Assembly: GCA_021781455.1 (NCBI GenBank)
Contig: JAJXWV010000064.1
Location: 124,001 to 188,000 of the forward strand
Length of the DNA stretch: 64,000 nt
Source: Acidobacteriota bacterium
Lineage (GTDB): Bacteria; Acidobacteriota; Thermoanaerobaculia; Gp7-AA8
Direction of reading: 5' to 3'
Translations under genes and position numbers: made by a program
Shown here: positions 1,819-63,510 of the stretch, one piece after another
Position numbering within the stretch: position 1 is the first letter of the stretch
How the letters are laid out: the number at the start of each line of letters is the position of its first letter
Notes under the pieces: generated by a model
Told to the model about the DNA's origin: nothing
What the model saw: the letters and a program-made list of their open reading frames with translations, nothing else
The model's database searches: none

Positions 1819-3168
1819 ATGTCCGATCCTCGCCACAGCGCCTCGATCATCGCCATCGGCTCGGAGATGCTCGGCATCACGCGCGTGGATACGAACTCGC
1901 TGAAGATCACGGCCGCGCTCGAAAATGCCGGCATTCCGCTCGTTCGAAAGAGCGTCGTCGGCGACAGCCGCGGCGATCTCGTTGCCGAGATCCGTTTCTC
2001 GCTCAGCCACTCCGACATCCTCGTGACCAGTGGCGGCCTGGGGCCGACCGAGGATGATCTGACGAGAGAGGGGCTGGCAGATGCGTTGGGGCTGGAGATA
2101 GAAGTCGATCAGTCGATCGTCGACAAGATCGCGGCGCGCTTCGCCGCGCGCGGCTGGAAGATGCCGGAGGTCAACAAGCGCCAGGCGAACATCTTCCGCG
2201 GGCAGAGGGTTCTCTACAACGAGCGAGGCACGGCACCCGGTTTTCATCTCGTCATCCCCGGCGATCGCAGGGACGCGCAGCAGCGCGTCCGCAGCCCCGG
2301 CGGTGAGGGGGCGACCGAAGTTGCGGACGCGCTGCTGCGCGTCCCTACGGCCGCTGAGACGCACGTCTGGGTTTTTCCCGGAGTTCCGCATGAGCTCGAG
2401 TGGATGGTGGCGAAGTACTTCGTGCCATGGCTCGCGGAAATCAGTGGAGGTCGGGCGCGCCGTCGCCGCGTGCTGAAGATCGGCGGGCTGACCGAATCTG
2501 CCGTCGAGGAGCGCCTGAAGCCGTTCTACGAGGCGCACCCGGGCGAGCCGGTGACGATCCTCGCGTCCCCCGCCGGAATCGAGGTCCACCTGATCACCGA
2601 TGCGGGCGCGGAGGACGCGGAATCGTTCGTCACCACGCGCGAGAACGAGCTGCACGAGATCTTCGGCGCGACCGTCTTCGGCTACGACGACGACACGCTG
2701 GAGTCCGTCATCGGGCGGACGCTCGCCGAGCGTGGAGAAACGGTGGCCACGGCGGAATCGTGCACGGGTGGCCTGCTCGCCTCGCGGATCACCGATATAC
2801 CCGGGTCGTCCGCCTACTTTCTCGGCGGCGCCGTCTGCTACACGGCCGCGGCGAAGACCGATCTCGCGGGAGTCGACGCGGCGCTGATCCGCGCGAACGG
2901 CGAAGTCTCCGAGCCGGTCGCCATCGCCATGGCGCAGGGGATTCGGCAGCGGTTCGGGTCGACGTACGGCATCGGCGTCACCGGCATCGCCGGCCCGACT
3001 GGCGGCACGCCGGAGAAGCCCGTCGGTACCGTGCACATCGCGGTGGCGAGCGCCCTGGCAGTCGAGCATCGCAAGCTGCAGTGGCAGGGGCCGCGGACGA
3101 TCATCAAGTGGTACTCCACACAGCAGGCGCTGGACATGCTCCGGCGCTTCGTTCCGAAGGCGCGATGA
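1819..3168 (+). CDS. cinA: CinA-type nicotinamide-nucleotide amidase/pyrophosphatase
   Basis: Encodes 449 residues from the ATG at 1819 (MSDPRHS); a longer start at 1798 is possible. The N-terminal half is a MoaB/MogA-like COG1058 domain (SGGLGPTEDDLT near 70-81, later VFPGVPHELEWM), and the C-terminal half is the PncC-type NMN deamidase (AESCTGGLLASR near 311, GVTGIAGP near 392). Together they belong to pyridine-nucleotide salvage/housecleaning. The unusual part is residues about 151-176, encoded by an exactly 78-nt palindrome placed between VIPGD and the VFPGVP motif, where family members normally run straight through. The stop overlaps the start of the next gene by ATGA, so the two are probably translationally coupled. 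Confidence 0.93.
   Translation: MSDPRHSASIIAIGSEMLGITRVDTNSLKITAALENAGIPLVRKSVVGDSRGDLVAEIRFSLSHSDILVTSGGLGPTEDDLTREGLADALGLEIEVDQSIVDKIAARFAARGWKMPEVNKRQANIFRGQRVLYNERGTAPGFHLVIPGDRRDAQQRVRSPGGEGATEVADALLRVPTAAETHVWVFPGVPHELEWMVAKYFVPWLAEISGGRARRRRVLKIGGLTESAVEERLKPFYEAHPGEPVTILASPAGIEVHLITDAGAEDAESFVTTRENELHEIFGATVFGYDDDTLESVIGRTLAERGETVATAESCTGGLLASRITDIPGSSAYFLGGAVCYTAAAKTDLAGVDAALIRANGEVSEPVAIAMAQGIRQRFGSTYGIGVTGIAGPTGGTPEKPVGTVHIAVASALAVEHRKLQWQGPRTIIKWYSTQQALDMLRRFVPKAR
2269..2346. repeat. perfect 25-bp inverted repeat inside cinA
   Basis: Arms at 2269-2293 and 2322-2346 are exact reverse complements over 25 nt and are separated by 28 nt. The whole unit is 78 nt, i.e. 26 codons, so it does not shift the frame and contains no stop on the coding strand. 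It would form a very stable GC-rich hairpin in the cinA mRNA. I saw no second copy of these arms in the window. Confidence 0.92.
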
Positions 3169-6770: not shown

Positions 6771-6901
6771 AGTGCTGAGTACTGAGTGCTGAGTCCTGAG
6801 TAAGAACGAGACCACTCAGTACTCAGCACTCAGTACTCAGCACTCAGTACTCAGCACTCAGTACTCAGCACTCAGTACTCAGCACTCAGTACTCAGCACT
6901 C
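6771..6901. repeat. family III heptad palindrome with expanded right arm, dxr/cdsA junction
   Basis: The left arm (6771-6801) has about four TGAGTNC units; the right arm (6814-6901) has about twelve units alternating ACTCAGT and ACTCAGC. The strong asymmetry suggests recent tandem expansion of one arm. The centre is only about 12 nt. Confidence 0.92.
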
Positions 6902-17895: not shown

Positions 17896-18932
17896 TGATT
17901 GCAGGCGAGCCGTCCGAGGAGCCGGAGGACGCACGTCGTCTGCGTCAGGTCCGCACCGGCGCGCAGGCGGTGGCGATCTCGGTCGTGATCGTGACCTGGA
18001 ACAGCGAGCGCTGGATCGAGCGGTGCCTGCGCTCGATCGGTCCGGCCTGCGGCGAGCTGCCGCACGAAGTGATTGTCTGCGACAACGCTTCGACCGACGC
18101 CACGCTCCAACGGCTGGCCGCTCTGACCGGATCGCCGTCGAATGCCGTCGCCGGTGCGCGAGTGATCCGGTCGGCCGAGAACCACGGCTTCGCGGCCGGG
18201 ACGAATCGCGCTCTCGCCGATTCACAGGGCAAATACGTTTTCCTTCTCAATCCCGATTGCGAGCTGGCGCCGGGCGCCCTCGCCGTTCTGCATGATTTTC
18301 TCGAAGCCGACCGGAACGCAGCGGCAGCGGCGCCCCTGCTGATCGACGAGACCGGCGACTCGCAGCGGGAGTTTCAGCTGCGTCGCTTCCCCACGCTTCG
18401 CACGTTCGCCTGGGAGGTCTTCGGGCTGGATCACTTTGCGCCGCAGAACCGTACCAGCGCGCATTACCGCTATCGAGATCTCGACCTTACGCGGCCGCAA
18501 CGCATCGAGCAGCCGGCCGCGGCGGCGTTGCTGATCCGCCGCAGCGTGGTCGAAGAGATCGGTCCCTTCGACGAGCAGTTCGAGCCGGCGTGGTTCGAAG
18601 ATGTCGACTACTGCCGGCGTCTGGCGGCCAGCGGCAAGGCTGTGTTCATCGTGCCCGCGGCGGGCGCGAGGCACTTCGGCGGGTCGAGCCTGGAGAACCT
18701 CTCCTTCGCCGAGTTCACCGACGCGTTCTACCGGAACATGTGGCGCTACGCGAAGAAATGGCTGCGGCCGTCGAAGGCCGAGGCGTTGCGGTGGATCATC
18801 GTCGTGGGCATGCTGCTGCGGGCAGCCGCGGCGCTCGGCGGGATCGCCCATCGAGAGGTCGGCCGGTGGAAGGCGTTCCGAGCCTACGCGGAGGTCGCGA
18901 AGAGGGCGTTCAGGCGATGGAGCGCGGCCTGA
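17877..18932 (+). CDS. glycosyltransferase family 2 (rhamnosyltransferase-like)
   Basis: Encodes 351 residues from the ATG at 17877, which overlaps the previous gene by 19 nt; the ATG at 17895 (TGATG overlap) is the alternative. Landmarks are VVIVTWNSERW, VCDNASTDAT, AENHGFAAGTNRAL, YVFLLNPDCELAPGAL and FEPAWFEDVDYCRRL. The architecture matches the large GT2 group that includes rhamnosyltransferases. A C-terminal amphipathic/hydrophobic segment (RWIIVVGMLLRAAAAL) may attach it to the membrane. It overlaps the next GT2 gene by 16 nt. Confidence 0.88.
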   Translation: MADTTLMIAGEPSEEPEDARRLRQVRTGAQAVAISVVIVTWNSERWIERCLRSIGPACGELPHEVIVCDNASTDATLQRLAALTGSPSNAVAGARVIRSAENHGFAAGTNRALADSQGKYVFLLNPDCELAPGALAVLHDFLEADRNAAAAAPLLIDETGDSQREFQLRRFPTLRTFAWEVFGLDHFAPQNRTSAHYRYRDLDLTRPQRIEQPAAAALLIRRSVVEEIGPFDEQFEPAWFEDVDYCRRLAASGKAVFIVPAAGARHFGGSSLENLSFAEFTDAFYRNMWRYAKKWLRPSKAEALRWIIVVGMLLRAAAALGGIAHREVGRWKAFRAYAEVAKRAFRRWSAA

Positions 18933-20056
18933 CCGGAACGCCCGACCGCCTCGTGTCGATCGTTCTCGTGACGTGGAACAGCGCGGCCTGGCTCCCTCGC
19001 TGCCTCGCCGCGATCGCACAGCAGACCTGGCCGTCGCTCGAGCTGATCGCAGTCGACAACGCCTCGCAGGACGATTCGCCGAGTGTTCTGGAGACCCTCG
19101 GGTCCCGGCCTGAGCTCGGCCGCCGCGTTCCTGTGACGATCATCCGCAACGCGAGCAACGCCGGCTTTTCCCGCGCCGTCAATCAGGCGATCGAAGCAGC
19201 GTCCGGCGCATTCGTTCTGCTCATCAATCCCGACGCCTCGATGGAGCGCGACTACCTCGAGCAGCTGATCCACGCCTTCGATGCGGCAGGCGAGGCGTTC
19301 GGCGCAGCCACAGGCCTGCTCATGCGCGGTGAAGGCAACGGCATCACCCCGACCGACATCGTCGATTCCATGGGCATTCGCATGACCCGCAGCGGCCGCC
19401 ATCTCGACGTCGGGCAGGGGCGGCGGCTAGGGGAGGACAAGCGAGGGCTGCGGGAATTGCAGACCGCAGACCGCAGACCGCAGACGGCAGACTCTCTGGC
19501 GGATCACGAACATGTCGATCACGATGGCGAGCCGAACCGCGGTCTGCGGTCTGCGGTCTGCGGTCCCGTCTACGAAGTCTTCGGTGTTTCCGGCGCCGCC
19601 GCGCTGTTCCGCATGTCGTTCATCCGCGACCTCTCCATCGACGGCGAGTTCCTCGATGAAGACTTCTTCGCCTTCCGCGAGGACGCCGACCTGGCCTGGC
19701 GCGGCCGGATCTTCGGCTGGCGGGCGCTCTGTGTTCCAGCTGCAGTCGGGGCTCACGTCCGGACCGTGACCCCGGAGCGGCGCCGCGACGTGCCGCCGGC
19801 GATCAACATGCACTCCGTGAAGAACCGGTTTCTGCTGCGCCTGAAGAACGAGGGCGCCTGGCTGGCGTTGCGCAACGCGCCCTTCGAGATCGCACGCGAT
19901 CTCGTGACCATCGGTGCCGTGCTCACGGTCGAGCGCACCTCGCTGCCGGCGCTTTCGTGGCTTTGGCGGAACCGTTCGCGAATTCGTGAGCGTCGTCGCC
20001 ACGTCCAGCGCCGGCGGCGCGTTTCCGATCGGTCCCTGGCCGGGTGGTTCCGATGA
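18917..20056 (+). CDS. glycosyltransferase family 2 with an in-frame palindromic insertion
   Basis: Encodes 379 residues from the ATG at 18917 inside the end of the preceding gene. It has the GT2 landmarks LVSIVLVTWNSAAW, AVDNASQDDS, SNAGFSRAVNQAI, VLLINPDASM and DEDFFAFREDADLAWRG. Residues about 181-216 (from ELQTADRRPQTADS to RGLRSAVCGP) have no counterpart in the family pattern and are encoded by the GCAGACC heptad palindrome at 19459-19564, just before the VFGVSGAAALFR block. The frame stays open, so the protein may still be functional with a loop insertion; alternatively the enzyme could be impaired. The stop overlaps the next start by ATGA. Confidence 0.87.
   Translation: MERGLTGTPDRLVSIVLVTWNSAAWLPRCLAAIAQQTWPSLELIAVDNASQDDSPSVLETLGSRPELGRRVPVTIIRNASNAGFSRAVNQAIEAASGAFVLLINPDASMERDYLEQLIHAFDAAGEAFGAATGLLMRGEGNGITPTDIVDSMGIRMTRSGRHLDVGQGRRLGEDKRGLRELQTADRRPQTADSLADHEHVDHDGEPNRGLRSAVCGPVYEVFGVSGAAALFRMSFIRDLSIDGEFLDEDFFAFREDADLAWRGRIFGWRALCVPAAVGAHVRTVTPERRRDVPPAINMHSVKNRFLLRLKNEGAWLALRNAPFEIARDLVTIGAVLTVERTSLPALSWLWRNRSRIRERRRHVQRRRRVSDRSLAGWFR
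19459..19564. repeat. family VI heptad palindrome (GCAGACC) inside a GT2 gene
   Basis: Five tandem units at 19459-19493 (GCAGACC three times, GCAGACG, GCAGACT) and three tandem GGTCTGC units at 19541-19561 form the arms; the centre is about 47 nt. The element is transparent to the reading frame of the host gene. Confidence 0.92.
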
Positions 20057-21222
20057 AGGTCGCCATTCTCGGCACGCGCGGCGTCCCTCCGGCATACGGA
20101 GGATTCGAGACGTTCGCCGCCGAGCTGGGAACCCGCCTGGTGCAGCGCGGCCACGCCGTCACCGTCTACTGCCGGGCGCAAGGTGTCGAGCGCTGGAACG
20201 GCATCCGCCGCATCGTCCTCCCCGCTGTCGGCCACAAGTACCTCGAGACCGTCAGCCACTCGTTTCTTTCCGCACTCGACGCGCTGCGGCGGGACTTCGA
20301 CGCCGTCCTCGTCTGCAATGCGGCGAATGCCTTCGTCCTTCCGCTGCTTCGCGCCGTCCGGATTCCTGTCGCCATCAACGTCGACGGCATCGAGCGGCGG
20401 CGGCGCAAGTGGAACGTTCTCGGCCGAGCGGTCTACGCCTGCGGCGAGGCCTTCTCCGCAGCATTCGCCAATGCCGTCGTGGCCGATGCGGATGTCATCG
20501 CCAACTACTACCGCACGGCCTACGGACTCGATCCGGTGACGATCCCGTACGGCGCCGAGTTTCCGGTCGAAGAGGACAGCGACGTGCTCGAGAGGCTCGG
20601 CCTGCACCGCCGCGGCTACATCCTCTACGTCAGCCGCTTCGAGCCCGAGAACAATCCGCTCGAAGTAGTGCTGGCGTACGAGACTCTGGTCACGAGGTCA
20701 CGAGGTTACGAGGTCACCAGGCCAGCTCACCTCGCGACCTCGCAACCTCGCAACCCCGTGACCAACGTCCCCCCTCTGGTCATGTTAGGCGCCGGTCTGT
20801 ACGCTCCTGACCTGGTCCGGGAGCTCCACCGCCACGCCAGCGACACCATCCTCTTCCCTGGCGCGCTCTATGATGCCGACTACCGGACGCTCCAGCGGAA
20901 CGCCCTCGTGTACCTTCAGGCGACCGAGGTCGGCGGGACACATCCCGCGCTGATCGAAGGAATGGCGTCGGGAGGGTGCGTCCTCGCCCATGACACCCCC
21001 GAAAATCGGGAAGTCGGAGGTGACGCAATTGGTTACTTCCAGCTCCGCCCGGCTGAAACGCTGTCGGCCGAGCTCGCCAGGCTTCTGGCCGACACCTCGG
21101 GGATCGACTCGCTCCGGCAGGCCGGAAGGCTCCGCGCCCGAGAGCGGTTTTCCTGGGGACGGGTTGTGGACAGCTACGAAGCGCTGCTCGAAGCGCTCGC
21201 GGGACAGCGGCCCCGTCCTTAG
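20053..21222 (+). CDS. GT4 glycosyltransferase with N-terminal DUF1972-type domain
   Basis: Encodes 389 residues. The N-terminus MKVAILGTRGVPPAYGGFETF is the hallmark of the DUF1972/rhamnosyltransferase group, INVDGIERRR-KW is typical of it, and the C-terminal domain has YVSRFEPENNP and EVGGTHPALIEGMASG. Residues about 213-238 (from VTRSRGYEVTRP to QPRNPVTN) are encoded by the GGTCACG palindrome at 20688-20764 and interrupt the spacer between the YVSRFEPENNP helix and the VMLGAG strand. A TTA codon is at 20785. The ATG at 20053 (ATGA overlap) is preferred to the GTG at 20044. Confidence 0.9.
   Translation: MKVAILGTRGVPPAYGGFETFAAELGTRLVQRGHAVTVYCRAQGVERWNGIRRIVLPAVGHKYLETVSHSFLSALDALRRDFDAVLVCNAANAFVLPLLRAVRIPVAINVDGIERRRRKWNVLGRAVYACGEAFSAAFANAVVADADVIANYYRTAYGLDPVTIPYGAEFPVEEDSDVLERLGLHRRGYILYVSRFEPENNPLEVVLAYETLVTRSRGYEVTRPAHLATSQPRNPVTNVPPLVMLGAGLYAPDLVRELHRHASDTILFPGALYDADYRTLQRNALVYLQATEVGGTHPALIEGMASGGCVLAHDTPENREVGGDAIGYFQLRPAETLSAELARLLADTSGIDSLRQAGRLRARERFSWGRVVDSYEALLEALAGQRPRP
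20688..20764. repeat. family V heptad palindrome (GGTCACG) inside a GT4 gene
   Basis: Left arm 20688-20718 is about four units of GGTCACGA/GGTTACGA; right arm 20731-20764 is CTCGCGAC/CTCGCAAC/CCCGTGAC. Arms pair imperfectly (about four fifths of positions). The coding frame is kept. The same heptads form the intergenic element at 28050. Confidence 0.9.
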
Positions 21223-28034: not shown

Positions 28035-28049
28035 TGATTCACGGCTTGC

Positions 28050-28164
28050 GGGGTCACGGGGTCACCAGGTCACCAGGTCACGGGGTCACGAGGTCACGGG
28101 GTCACGAGGTCCTCCGCCCGGACTCACGGCCGCGCAACCGCGTAACCGCGCAACCTCGTGACCA
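28050..28164. repeat. family V/IV composite palindrome upstream of recQ
   Basis: Left part is nine or so tandem GGTCACG/AGGTCAC heptads (28050-28111). The right part starts with CGCGCAACCG 8-mers of family IV and ends CAACCTCGTGACC, so the two repeat vocabularies are mixed in one element. It lies between the divergent recQ and the gene at 28231. Confidence 0.85.
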
Positions 28165-34416: not shown

Positions 34417-34851
34417 ATGCGCGCTGGCTGGAATGAGTACTTCATGGGCATCGCCCATCAGGCGGCAACTCGCTCAACCTGTCCTCGAAAACATGTCGGA
34501 GCAGTCATCGTCCGCGACCGGACCGTGCTTTCAACCGGCTACAACGGATCTCTTCGCGGCATGCCGCACTGCGAGGAGGTCGGATGCCTGATGGAAGAGG
34601 GCCACTGCGTTCAGACCGTGCATGCCGAGGCTAACGCGATCCTGCAGGCGGCGAAGAACGGCGTCTCCGTCGACGGTGCCGAGATGTATACGACCGCGTC
34701 TCCCTGCTGGAATTGCTTCAAGCTGATCGCCAACGCCGGGATCCGACGAATCTACTTCGGCGAGTTCTATCGCGAGGAGAGATCGCGCCAGGTCGCCGAG
34801 CAGATCGGCATCGAGCTCGTCGATCTGGAGATGCCCGCCTCCCCCAAATAG
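34417..34851 (+). CDS. deoxycytidylate (dCMP) deaminase
   Basis: Encodes 144 residues. The zinc ligands and catalytic Glu are in HAEANAIL and SPCWNCFKLI; the N-terminal WNEYFMGIA and VIVRDR-VLSTGYNG blocks are typical of the ComEB/dCMP deaminase family. It makes dUMP for thymidylate synthesis. The second cysteine motif is CWNC where CPMC is common, which still keeps both ligands. A heptad palindrome separates it from tsaB downstream, so the two may be one transcript. Confidence 0.92.
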   Translation: MRAGWNEYFMGIAHQAATRSTCPRKHVGAVIVRDRTVLSTGYNGSLRGMPHCEEVGCLMEEGHCVQTVHAEANAILQAAKNGVSVDGAEMYTTASPCWNCFKLIANAGIRRIYFGEFYREERSRQVAEQIGIELVDLEMPASPK

Positions 34852-34947
34852 AGTCCTGAGTCCTGAGTCCTGAGTCCTGAGTCCTGAGAACAGACGGGAT
34901 AGACTCGCCCTTTCAGGCTCAGCACTCAGGACTCAGGACTCAGGACT
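34852..34947. repeat. family III heptad palindrome between dCMP deaminase and tsaB
   Basis: Left arm 34852-34888 is five tandem AGTCCTG units; right arm 34918-34947 is GCACTCA then three GGACTCA units and touches the tsaB ATG directly. The arms pair with one mismatch. The AGGA of the last right-arm units is the only ribosome-site-like sequence for tsaB. Confidence 0.93.
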
Positions 34948-40037: not shown

Positions 40038-40116
40038 AGTCCTGAGTCCTGAGTGCTGAGTCCTGAGTTCTGAGAAGCGTGACCCGCTCAGGACTCAGCA
40101 CTCAGGACTCAGGACT
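40038..40116. repeat. family III heptad palindrome with perfect 30-bp arms
   Basis: Arms 40038-40067 and 40087-40116 are exact complements over 30 nt, including the order of the variable base in each TGAGTNC unit (C, C, G, C). The right arm ends one base before the aminotransferase stop codon. Confidence 0.95.
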
Positions 40117-45085: not shown

Positions 45086-45233
45086 AAGTCCTGAGTGCTG
45101 AGTCCTGAGTGCTGAGGGAAGTGCTGAGTACTGAGTCCTGAGTGTTGAGTGCAGCCCGCGTTACCTCAGTCGGCACTCCGCACTCAGTAATAACGACCTC
45201 GACCTCAGAACTCAGCACTCAGCACTCAGGACT
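45086..45233. repeat. large family III heptad element
   Basis: Two blocks of TGAGTNC units (45086-45115 and 45120-45151) face two blocks of complementary units (45165-45189 with variants, 45200-45233). Several units carry extra substitutions (TGTTGAG, CGGCACTC), so this looks like an older, partly decayed double element. It separates the divergent plsC and korA genes. Confidence 0.85.
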
Positions 45234-45280
45234 AAGGGGCTGCTCACGTCGCGTTACAATCTCACGCCTACCGATCAAAA

Positions 45281-57371: not shown

Positions 57372-57525
57372 CGCCGGGGTGGTTGCGCGGTTGCGCGGTT
57401 TCAGGCCGATATCGATTCTGGCTCCGATTTAAGGTCGGAATCCATGAGCATTACGGCTGTCAGGCTGGTAACGCCGTCGCGAACGCGCGACCGCGCGACC
57501 GCGCAACCGCTTCCACAACCGCCCT
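57372..57525. repeat. family IV 8-mer palindrome upstream of the protease fusion gene
   Basis: Left GGGTGGTTGCGCGGTTGCGCGG (57378-57400) and right CGCGACCGCGCGACCGCGCAACCGC (about 57487-57512) frame 90 nt of unrelated, lower-GC sequence. No gene is seen in 57332-57543. Confidence 0.8.
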
Positions 57526-62821: not shown

Positions 62822-63437
62822 GAACAGCATTATCCCGCTCGTGGAAGTGGAGCGTGTGCGCAGGGCCGTGGACGAGGCGCACGACCTCGCCGCGGCGCGA
62901 TTCCGCGAAGCCTTCGACACGAGCGCGTTGCCGCCCGAGGAGCGGTTCGGGATGTACATGCAGATGCGCGCCGACTCCCTGCTCGAGGCGGCGAAGTACA
63001 TTCGCCTTCGCCATGGACGTCTCGCGTACGCGTTTGACGGCCGCTCGGTCACGCCGTACGTGATCGCCGGCGAGCCGGTCTACTCGCACTTCGATGTGCC
63101 CCGAATTGCGGAGGCCATCTACGAGTATTTCGTTCTTTCCGGCGAGATCTTCGCCACGCCGGCATGGAATCTGACGCGCGTCATCGCCAGCGCTGACGAA
63201 TACGGCGCAGCGCTGAAGATGATGACGCAGCCGCAACTGGTCGATGTCACGATCGCTTCCTTTCTCCCTGAAGCCGACTTGCGCGAGGACGGCTCCGCGC
63301 TCCTGCACGTGACCGTCTACACCCGCGCCGCCGAGGAGCGCGTCGAGCGCCGGACTCTCGCCCTCGACGCCTGGAACGAGCTCTCCTTCCACTCGCGCCA
63401 GCTGATCGCCGAAGGATCGGCCGGCGTCGCTGTCTGA
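62820..63437 (+). CDS. conserved-looking protein of unknown function
   Basis: Encodes 205 residues starting ATG at 62820; an upstream extension exists in the open frame but runs opposite the signal-peptide codons of the divergent gene. The sequence is soluble, with FRIAEAIYEYFVL-type helices and a C-terminal beta section (LLHVTVYTRAAEERVERRTLALD). I recognise no family. The TGA stop is part of the first heptad of the palindrome at 63434. It is convergent with recO. Confidence 0.72.
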   Translation: MNSIIPLVEVERVRRAVDEAHDLAAARFREAFDTSALPPEERFGMYMQMRADSLLEAAKYIRLRHGRLAYAFDGRSVTPYVIAGEPVYSHFDVPRIAEAIYEYFVLSGEIFATPAWNLTRVIASADEYGAALKMMTQPQLVDVTIASFLPEADLREDGSALLHVTVYTRAAEERVERRTLALDAWNELSFHSRQLIAEGSAGVAV

Positions 63438-63510
63438 GTCCTGAGTGCTGAGTCCTGAGTCCTGAGTAGAATCGCGGTCACTCAGGACTCAGCACTCAGG
63501 ACTCAGCACT
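63434..63510. repeat. family III heptad palindrome overlapping two gene ends
   Basis: Left arm of four TGAGTNC units (63434-63467) and right arm of four complementary units (63480-63510) around a 12-nt centre. The left arm contains the stop of the plus gene, and the right arm encodes the last residues (SAES) and stop of recO. Confidence 0.93.

Follow-up and report, generated by a model that had tools for sequence, protein, structure and literature searches.

A GCAGACC heptad palindrome inside a glycosyltransferase gene of an acidobacterium, and the genome-wide set of palindromic arrays around it

How can tandem copies of a 7-letter unit, folded back on themselves as a palindrome, lie in the middle of a glycosyltransferase gene without destroying it, and what brought them there? 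The question is raised by a GT2 gene in the window, by which we mean the whole stretch of 64,000 nucleotides that was analysed. The host is a soil acidobacterium of the Thermoanaerobaculia, in which hundreds of small hairpins are built from tandem units of 7 or 8 letters. A preliminary description had reported a GCAGACC palindrome with five direct and three inverted copies inside the gene, and the palindrome turned out to be real by tandem repeat search (TRF), exact copies, inverted repeat and Markov simulations. The left arm consists of 4.9 copies of GCAGACC (96% matches) and the right arm of 3.9 copies of GCGGTCT (100% matches), and the two pair as a 27-nt inverted repeat with 96% complementarity (Table 1). 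Each strand carries three exact GCAGACC copies, which agrees with the three inverted copies; as for the five direct ones, three are exact while the others are GCAGACG and a truncated GCAGAC. The two period-7 arrays of the element score 24 and 20, whereas among 40 order-3 Markov simulations of the window a single array reached 12 and none reached 18. The window has 25 occurrences of the exact 7-mer, where 12.7 would be expected. A strong hairpin is predicted, with folding z-scores against shuffles of -7.8 for RNA and -7.9 for DNA, and a search of the window in Rfam gave zero matches. The core between the arms is nearly unique, with one further genomic match at 3 mismatches, and since it is not repeated, the element is not a copy of one fixed element.

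Table 1. Coordinates in the window of the GT2 element, its gene surroundings and the other palindromic arrays
Feature	Position	Strand	Basis
GT2 glycosyltransferase CDS, 379 aa, PF00535, intact, predicted GT-A fold	18917..20056	+	ORF, Pfam, structure prediction
GT2 residues 183-209, predicted disordered, missing from homologues	19463..19543	+	pLDDT < 50, alignment
Left arm, GCAGACC x3 + GCAGACG + GCAGAC	19459..19492	+	TRF, exact-copy search
Core separating the arms, 46 nt	19493..19538	.	genome match search
Right arm, GCGGTCT x3.9, reverse complement of the left arm	19539..19565	-	TRF, inverted-repeat search
GT4-type glycosyltransferase CDS next to GT2, octad palindrome in loop	20053..21222	+	
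Octad palindrome within GT4, GGTCACGA / ACCTCGCA	20688..20755	.	
Intergenic heptad palindrome, family CTGAGTN	6771..6901	.	TRF, element grouping
Intergenic octad palindrome	28049..28163	.	TRF, element grouping
Intergenic heptad palindrome, family CTGAGTN	34851..34947	.	TRF, element grouping
Intergenic heptad palindrome, family CTGAGTN	40038..40116	.	TRF, element grouping
Intergenic heptad palindrome, family CTGAGTN	45087..45236	.	TRF, element grouping
Intergenic octad palindrome	57381..57510	.	TRF, element grouping
CTGAGTN heptad palindrome overlapping recO 3' end, stop-free arm on the recO side	63434..63510	.	

The gene itself is an ordinary member of its family. Its frame is open over all 379 codons, the protein matches PF00535 (Glycos_transf_2) and the predicted GT-A fold keeps the conserved motifs, which bears out the view of an otherwise normal glycosyltransferase without a stop; the invariant columns of the 27-sequence GT2 alignment are intact in the window protein by construction. 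A homologue is present in all of the relatives searched (60 of 60), and in most of them the match stops at about residue 169 and restarts at about residue 219. In the alignment, the segment from GRH[LF] to EVFGVSG has 56 residues in the window against 12-22 in relatives without palindromes, and 75 residues in the second sampled species of this genus (G001), which also carries a GCAGACC palindrome there. Residues of about 181-216, proposed earlier as an insertion, are indeed missing from GT2 homologues of other genera, and the loop is lacking in most homologues rather than shared by them, which would have spoken against an insertion. In the confidently predicted GT-A fold, the single long stretch with pLDDT below 50 is the insert, residues 183-209. 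Between the window species and G001, dN/dS is about 0.24 (0.20/0.84) outside the loop and about 0.77 (0.35/0.46) inside it. By these substitutions, the enzyme is constrained by purifying selection and the loop much less so.

Neither 7 nor 8 shares a factor with 3, and for this reason an array yields the same codon cycle in each of its three frames. GCAGACC reads ADRRPQT and its complement GLRSAVC, with zero stops in any frame on either strand, while CTGAGTC has a stop in every frame and its complement is stop-free. We looked at the arms of the elements inside called genes, and every arm is stop-free on the gene strand in 11 of 11, including single CTGAGTN-type arms; this sieve comprises only 11 elements, with genes called by a home-made gene finder. 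No whole CTGAGTN palindrome was found inside a gene among 91 elements in 464 kb, and as a table of unit type by location the sieve is not significant in Fisher's test. For the frame to be retained, it suffices that selection removes stops and net lengths that are not multiples of three. It had been suggested that the frame was kept either by selection or by a frame-neutral insertion. The first part agrees with the low dN/dS outside the loop, while a special insertion is unnecessary, since both strands of the unit are free of stops in every frame, the arrays inside genes are all stop-free, and a length divisible by 3 is a simple sieve.

To place the element among its like, we surveyed 464 kb of the host genome, 200 kb of which had been picked around GCAGACC hits. 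It turned out that this sample contains 112 period-7 and 28 period-8 arrays, against 2 and 0 in shuffles, and other periods gave few arrays apart from multiples of 7 and 8. Grouping of the arrays led to 91 elements, most of them intergenic (about 81%; 74 of 91) despite a coding fraction of 0.89. From the remaining 264 kb, which was not picked for the repeat and holds 32 elements, we infer a total of about 590 palindromic arrays in 4.88 Mb. Among the units, CTGAGTN, GCAGACC and the octad GGTYNCGN predominate, and AAAATTG is one of several rarer ones. A typical element has two inverted tracts of 3-6 tandem units each around a short, mostly non-conserved core; the cores vary between elements and only the arms are shared. 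There are 44 opposite-strand array pairs, and an inverted repeat scoring at least 14 was found in 47 of the 91 elements, compared with 14 of 200 random places. Private units were counted at no more than 1 mismatch. Two AAAATTG palindromes (L156, 8395-8489 and 8588-8689) have the identical core ACTGGAAGGCTGACAGCACTTGGTTTAGCGC, and therefore a whole element was duplicated nearby in this case. Besides, giant open frames of several thousand codons in L147-L149 (G000 C40:1-60000) contain heptad and octad arrays.

The GT2 element had been introduced as a second, sequence-unrelated case after cinA. In cinA (1819-3168), an in-frame 40-nt inverted repeat (85%) lies at 2261-2354 of the window and belongs to a dispersed palindrome family, GGACGCGCTGCTGCGCGTCCCTACGG, with 229 genomic matches (at most 3 mismatches) against 0 in the reversed control, whose copies often form inverted pairs about 60 nt apart. 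The two cases are unrelated, as the cinA insert comes from this different family, but the GT2 element is more than a second case, being one of a genome-wide set.

Palindromic arrays are abundant in most sampled genera of the host's GTDB family and rare in other Acidobacteriota, where 802 kb yielded only five period-7 arrays. The nearest relatives with names are MAGs of Acidobacteriota, of which one is labelled Thermoanaerobaculia and two gp7. Among 60 genomes, the pattern GCAGACCGCAGACCGCAGA (GCAGACC) is confined to both genomes of genus g1, the genus of the host, while GGAGTCGGGAGTCGGGAGTC (GGAGTCG) occurs in three g5 genomes with three stray matches in two others. CTGAGTN arrays are almost confined to family f1, and other members of the family carry units of their own, such as GCAGAAN, CCCGACN and AACATTC. 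Small samples of three array-poor genomes of the same family (G006, G010 and G016) gave no arrays.

The same coding loops have been occupied more than once. The GT2 loop carries the GCAGACC palindrome in both sampled species of g1, GGGAGTC palindromes in two species of g5 with one arm in a third, and a single-arm TCAGTTG/TCGGTTC array in one genome of g7 (G007). In most relatives, the neighbouring GT4 gene has a short loop after YVSRFEPENNPLEVV. In both species of g1 this loop contains the octad palindrome, in g5 it contains GGGAGTC-type arrays, and in another g7 genome (G015) a third heptad, GTTGGCC/GGCGAAC. Nested and duplicated heptad arrays enlarge the GT4 loop to about 100 residues in L003 (G005). 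On the GT2 tree, g5 clusters with g7 and g8, away from g1, and therefore either the insertions had separate origins, or an old insertion later underwent loss and a complete exchange of its unit. That these loops were occupied repeatedly is most simply put down to their tolerance, though more than tolerance could be involved.

In our view the GT2 feature is probably a member of the genome-wide palindromic set that sits as a passive insert in a tolerant loop, its frame kept by purifying selection. A palindromic array would have arisen in, or been copied into, a tolerant and disordered surface loop of GT2, at the latest in the ancestor of both sampled species of the genus. Ordinary purifying selection would then have retained the frame, given a stop-free unit and a net insert that is a multiple of three. 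The tracts may lengthen by 7-nt slippage, and the match of the arms may be made by fold-back template switching or by hairpin selection. The insert most likely does nothing for the enzyme.

What drives the arrays is a further matter. Across the 55 arrays of the CTGAGTN family, conservation reaches at least 99% at six positions, whereas at the seventh 58% of the bases depart from the consensus. A single free position is also seen in G017 and G009 and two free positions in G005, and GCAGACC is less clear, with its most variable position at 16%; the array detector favours few variable positions, but leaves open which position varies. A fixed hexamer with a free base is unexpected from slippage of an arbitrary unit, and together with the near-equivalents in other genera it counts against pure slippage and suggests that the unit is recognised or that arrays are copied from those already present. 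Within one CTGAGTN element, the free bases of the two arms are more alike than they are between elements, consistent with arms made together. Exact mirror order of the free base was also considered, with agreement of 0.59 at offset 0 against 0.41 in shuffles, but offsets 1 and -2 exceed the shuffles as well, and therefore the arms share composition rather than exact mirror order. It is conceivable, although we would not expect it, that a copying system which reads the sequence spreads palindromic arrays throughout the chromosome, each array made of a lineage-specific hexamer plus a free base, the hexamer being replaced from genus to genus and the coding loops being by-products. Such a system would be somewhat like templated telomere repeats, or like a transposase and its site. 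A link with reverse transcriptase was rejected, as the single RVT_1 gene of the genome has zero arrays near it.

A related and improbable reading is a dispersed mobile element of the REP/BIME type, which a dedicated transposase would spread by recognising the hexamer. The hundreds of dispersed copies, the fixed hexamer with one free base and the 14 Y1_Tnp genes in the genome (G000) would fit it. REP elements with their RAYT transposases have a conserved palindrome, fixed ends and a flanked cognate Y1 transposase, whereas the elements here have neither conserved core nor conserved ends, and arrays lie near only one of eight Y1_Tnp loci examined (the one at C13), with no excess beside the eight of the 14 genes that were examined. 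Besides, several unrelated units coexist in one genome, and one transposase would hardly recognise them all.

The array might also be a contingency locus, in which gain or loss of a 7-nt unit shifts the frame and switches a surface-polysaccharide glycosyltransferase off and on. The unit length is not a multiple of three, the gene sits in a run of glycosyltransferases beside a sugar transferase, and the adjoining GT4 gene has a second array. Phase variation nevertheless seems unlikely here: the tracts are short (4-5 units) and imperfect, palindrome-bearing GT2 copies are in frame in four of four species (one genome per species), and arrays in this genome adjoin ordinary housekeeping genes, mostly between genes. 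The two inverted arms and the mid-gene position of the GT2 element are also untypical of contingency loci.

Still more doubtful is a functional hairpin serving as a terminator, attenuator or mRNA-stability element, of which the GT2 copy would be a stray or would control translation. The strong predicted hairpin and the position of many intergenic elements, no more than about 10 nt from a stop codon, fit this reading, but 39% of the divergent intergenic regions have elements, against 33% of the tandem and 18% of the convergent ones, the reverse of what is expected of terminators, and this disfavours a terminator role. An assembly or amplification artefact, the former allowed for as a refutation in the preliminary description, is hardly credible even though inverted tandem arrays are difficult to assemble, as the separate MAG G001 of the genus has the loop with GCAGACC at the same site and in frame, which in the main refutes it, and similar arrays occur in many independent genomes.

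Several known repeats resemble these arrays, in part. Rickettsia palindromic elements (RPE) are palindromic repeats that have entered coding sequences without breaking the frame, at tolerant surface regions; they form families of about 100-150 bp whose sequence is conserved over the whole length. Loop alignment, dN/dS and pLDDT point to the same kind of in-frame insertion in a tolerant coding loop for the GT2 element, which differs from RPE in having heptad arrays around a unique core, with the arms alone shared among elements.

The closer likeness is with bacterial heptads, above all those of Xanthomonas and Nostoc, which often come in inverted pairs. The excess of heptameric repeats in bacteria goes back in the literature to 2007, and the accounts that relay it give no explanation (Mrazek 2007, via PMC4692102 and PMC4679880). 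In Xanthomonas, GGGAATC or GGGANTN arrays, commonly of 4 units, are dispersed and mostly intergenic, with 70-75 convergent inverted GGGANTN array pairs per genome and positions 1-4 and 6 of the unit conserved; their function is unknown, and one G-rich unit per genus with a proposed G-quadruplex is described (PMC4692102). Direct repeats of the heptad GGGGA(C/T)T are dispersed between genes in Nostoc (PMC4679880, PMC4692102), and the TAACTGA heptads of Beggiatoaceae are dispersed and intergenic, with a stop-containing orientation that excludes mid-coding positions (PMC4679880). The host arrays share with the latter two their dispersal between genes, while TAACTGA is almost only direct, a single unit, and mostly just upstream of start codons. 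Like the Xanthomonas heptads, the host arrays are dispersed above chance (112 against 2 in shuffles of 464 kb), mostly intergenic (74 of 91) and arranged in inverted pairs (44 opposite-strand pairs; strong inverted repeats in 47 of 91), with some unit positions conserved and others free. GCAGACC, CTGAGTN and AAAATTG have no G3 runs, and G-richness marks the Xanthomonas/Nostoc subtype rather than the class. Unlike in Xanthomonas, several unrelated units coexist in the host, octads and non-G-rich ones included; they differ from genus to genus, arrays have settled repeatedly in the same coding loops, and divergent intergenic regions are not avoided. A search of open-access papers for the unit strings gave zero matches. 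Borg tandem repeats, as far as they are outlined in PMC9879509, are fast-evolving and create disordered protein regions; they resemble the GT2 array in adding disordered segments to proteins, and differ in being direct and on archaeal extrachromosomal elements, whereas the host arrays are inverted heptads on a bacterial chromosome.

In conclusion, the host elements are of the same kind as the Xanthomonas heptads, but their units are more diverse, include octads and turn over between genera, and coding loops are used repeatedly. The newer points are the six near-fixed bases with a free seventh in several families, the change of units between genera and the repeated colonisation of the same loops. 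With sister genera that have different units, loops that are reoccupied and unit families with one free position, the clade is a natural experiment, in which one can test whether heptads owe their spread to slippage alone or to an agent that reads the unit. The GT2 case shows a route by which repeat DNA can give enzymes disordered segments.
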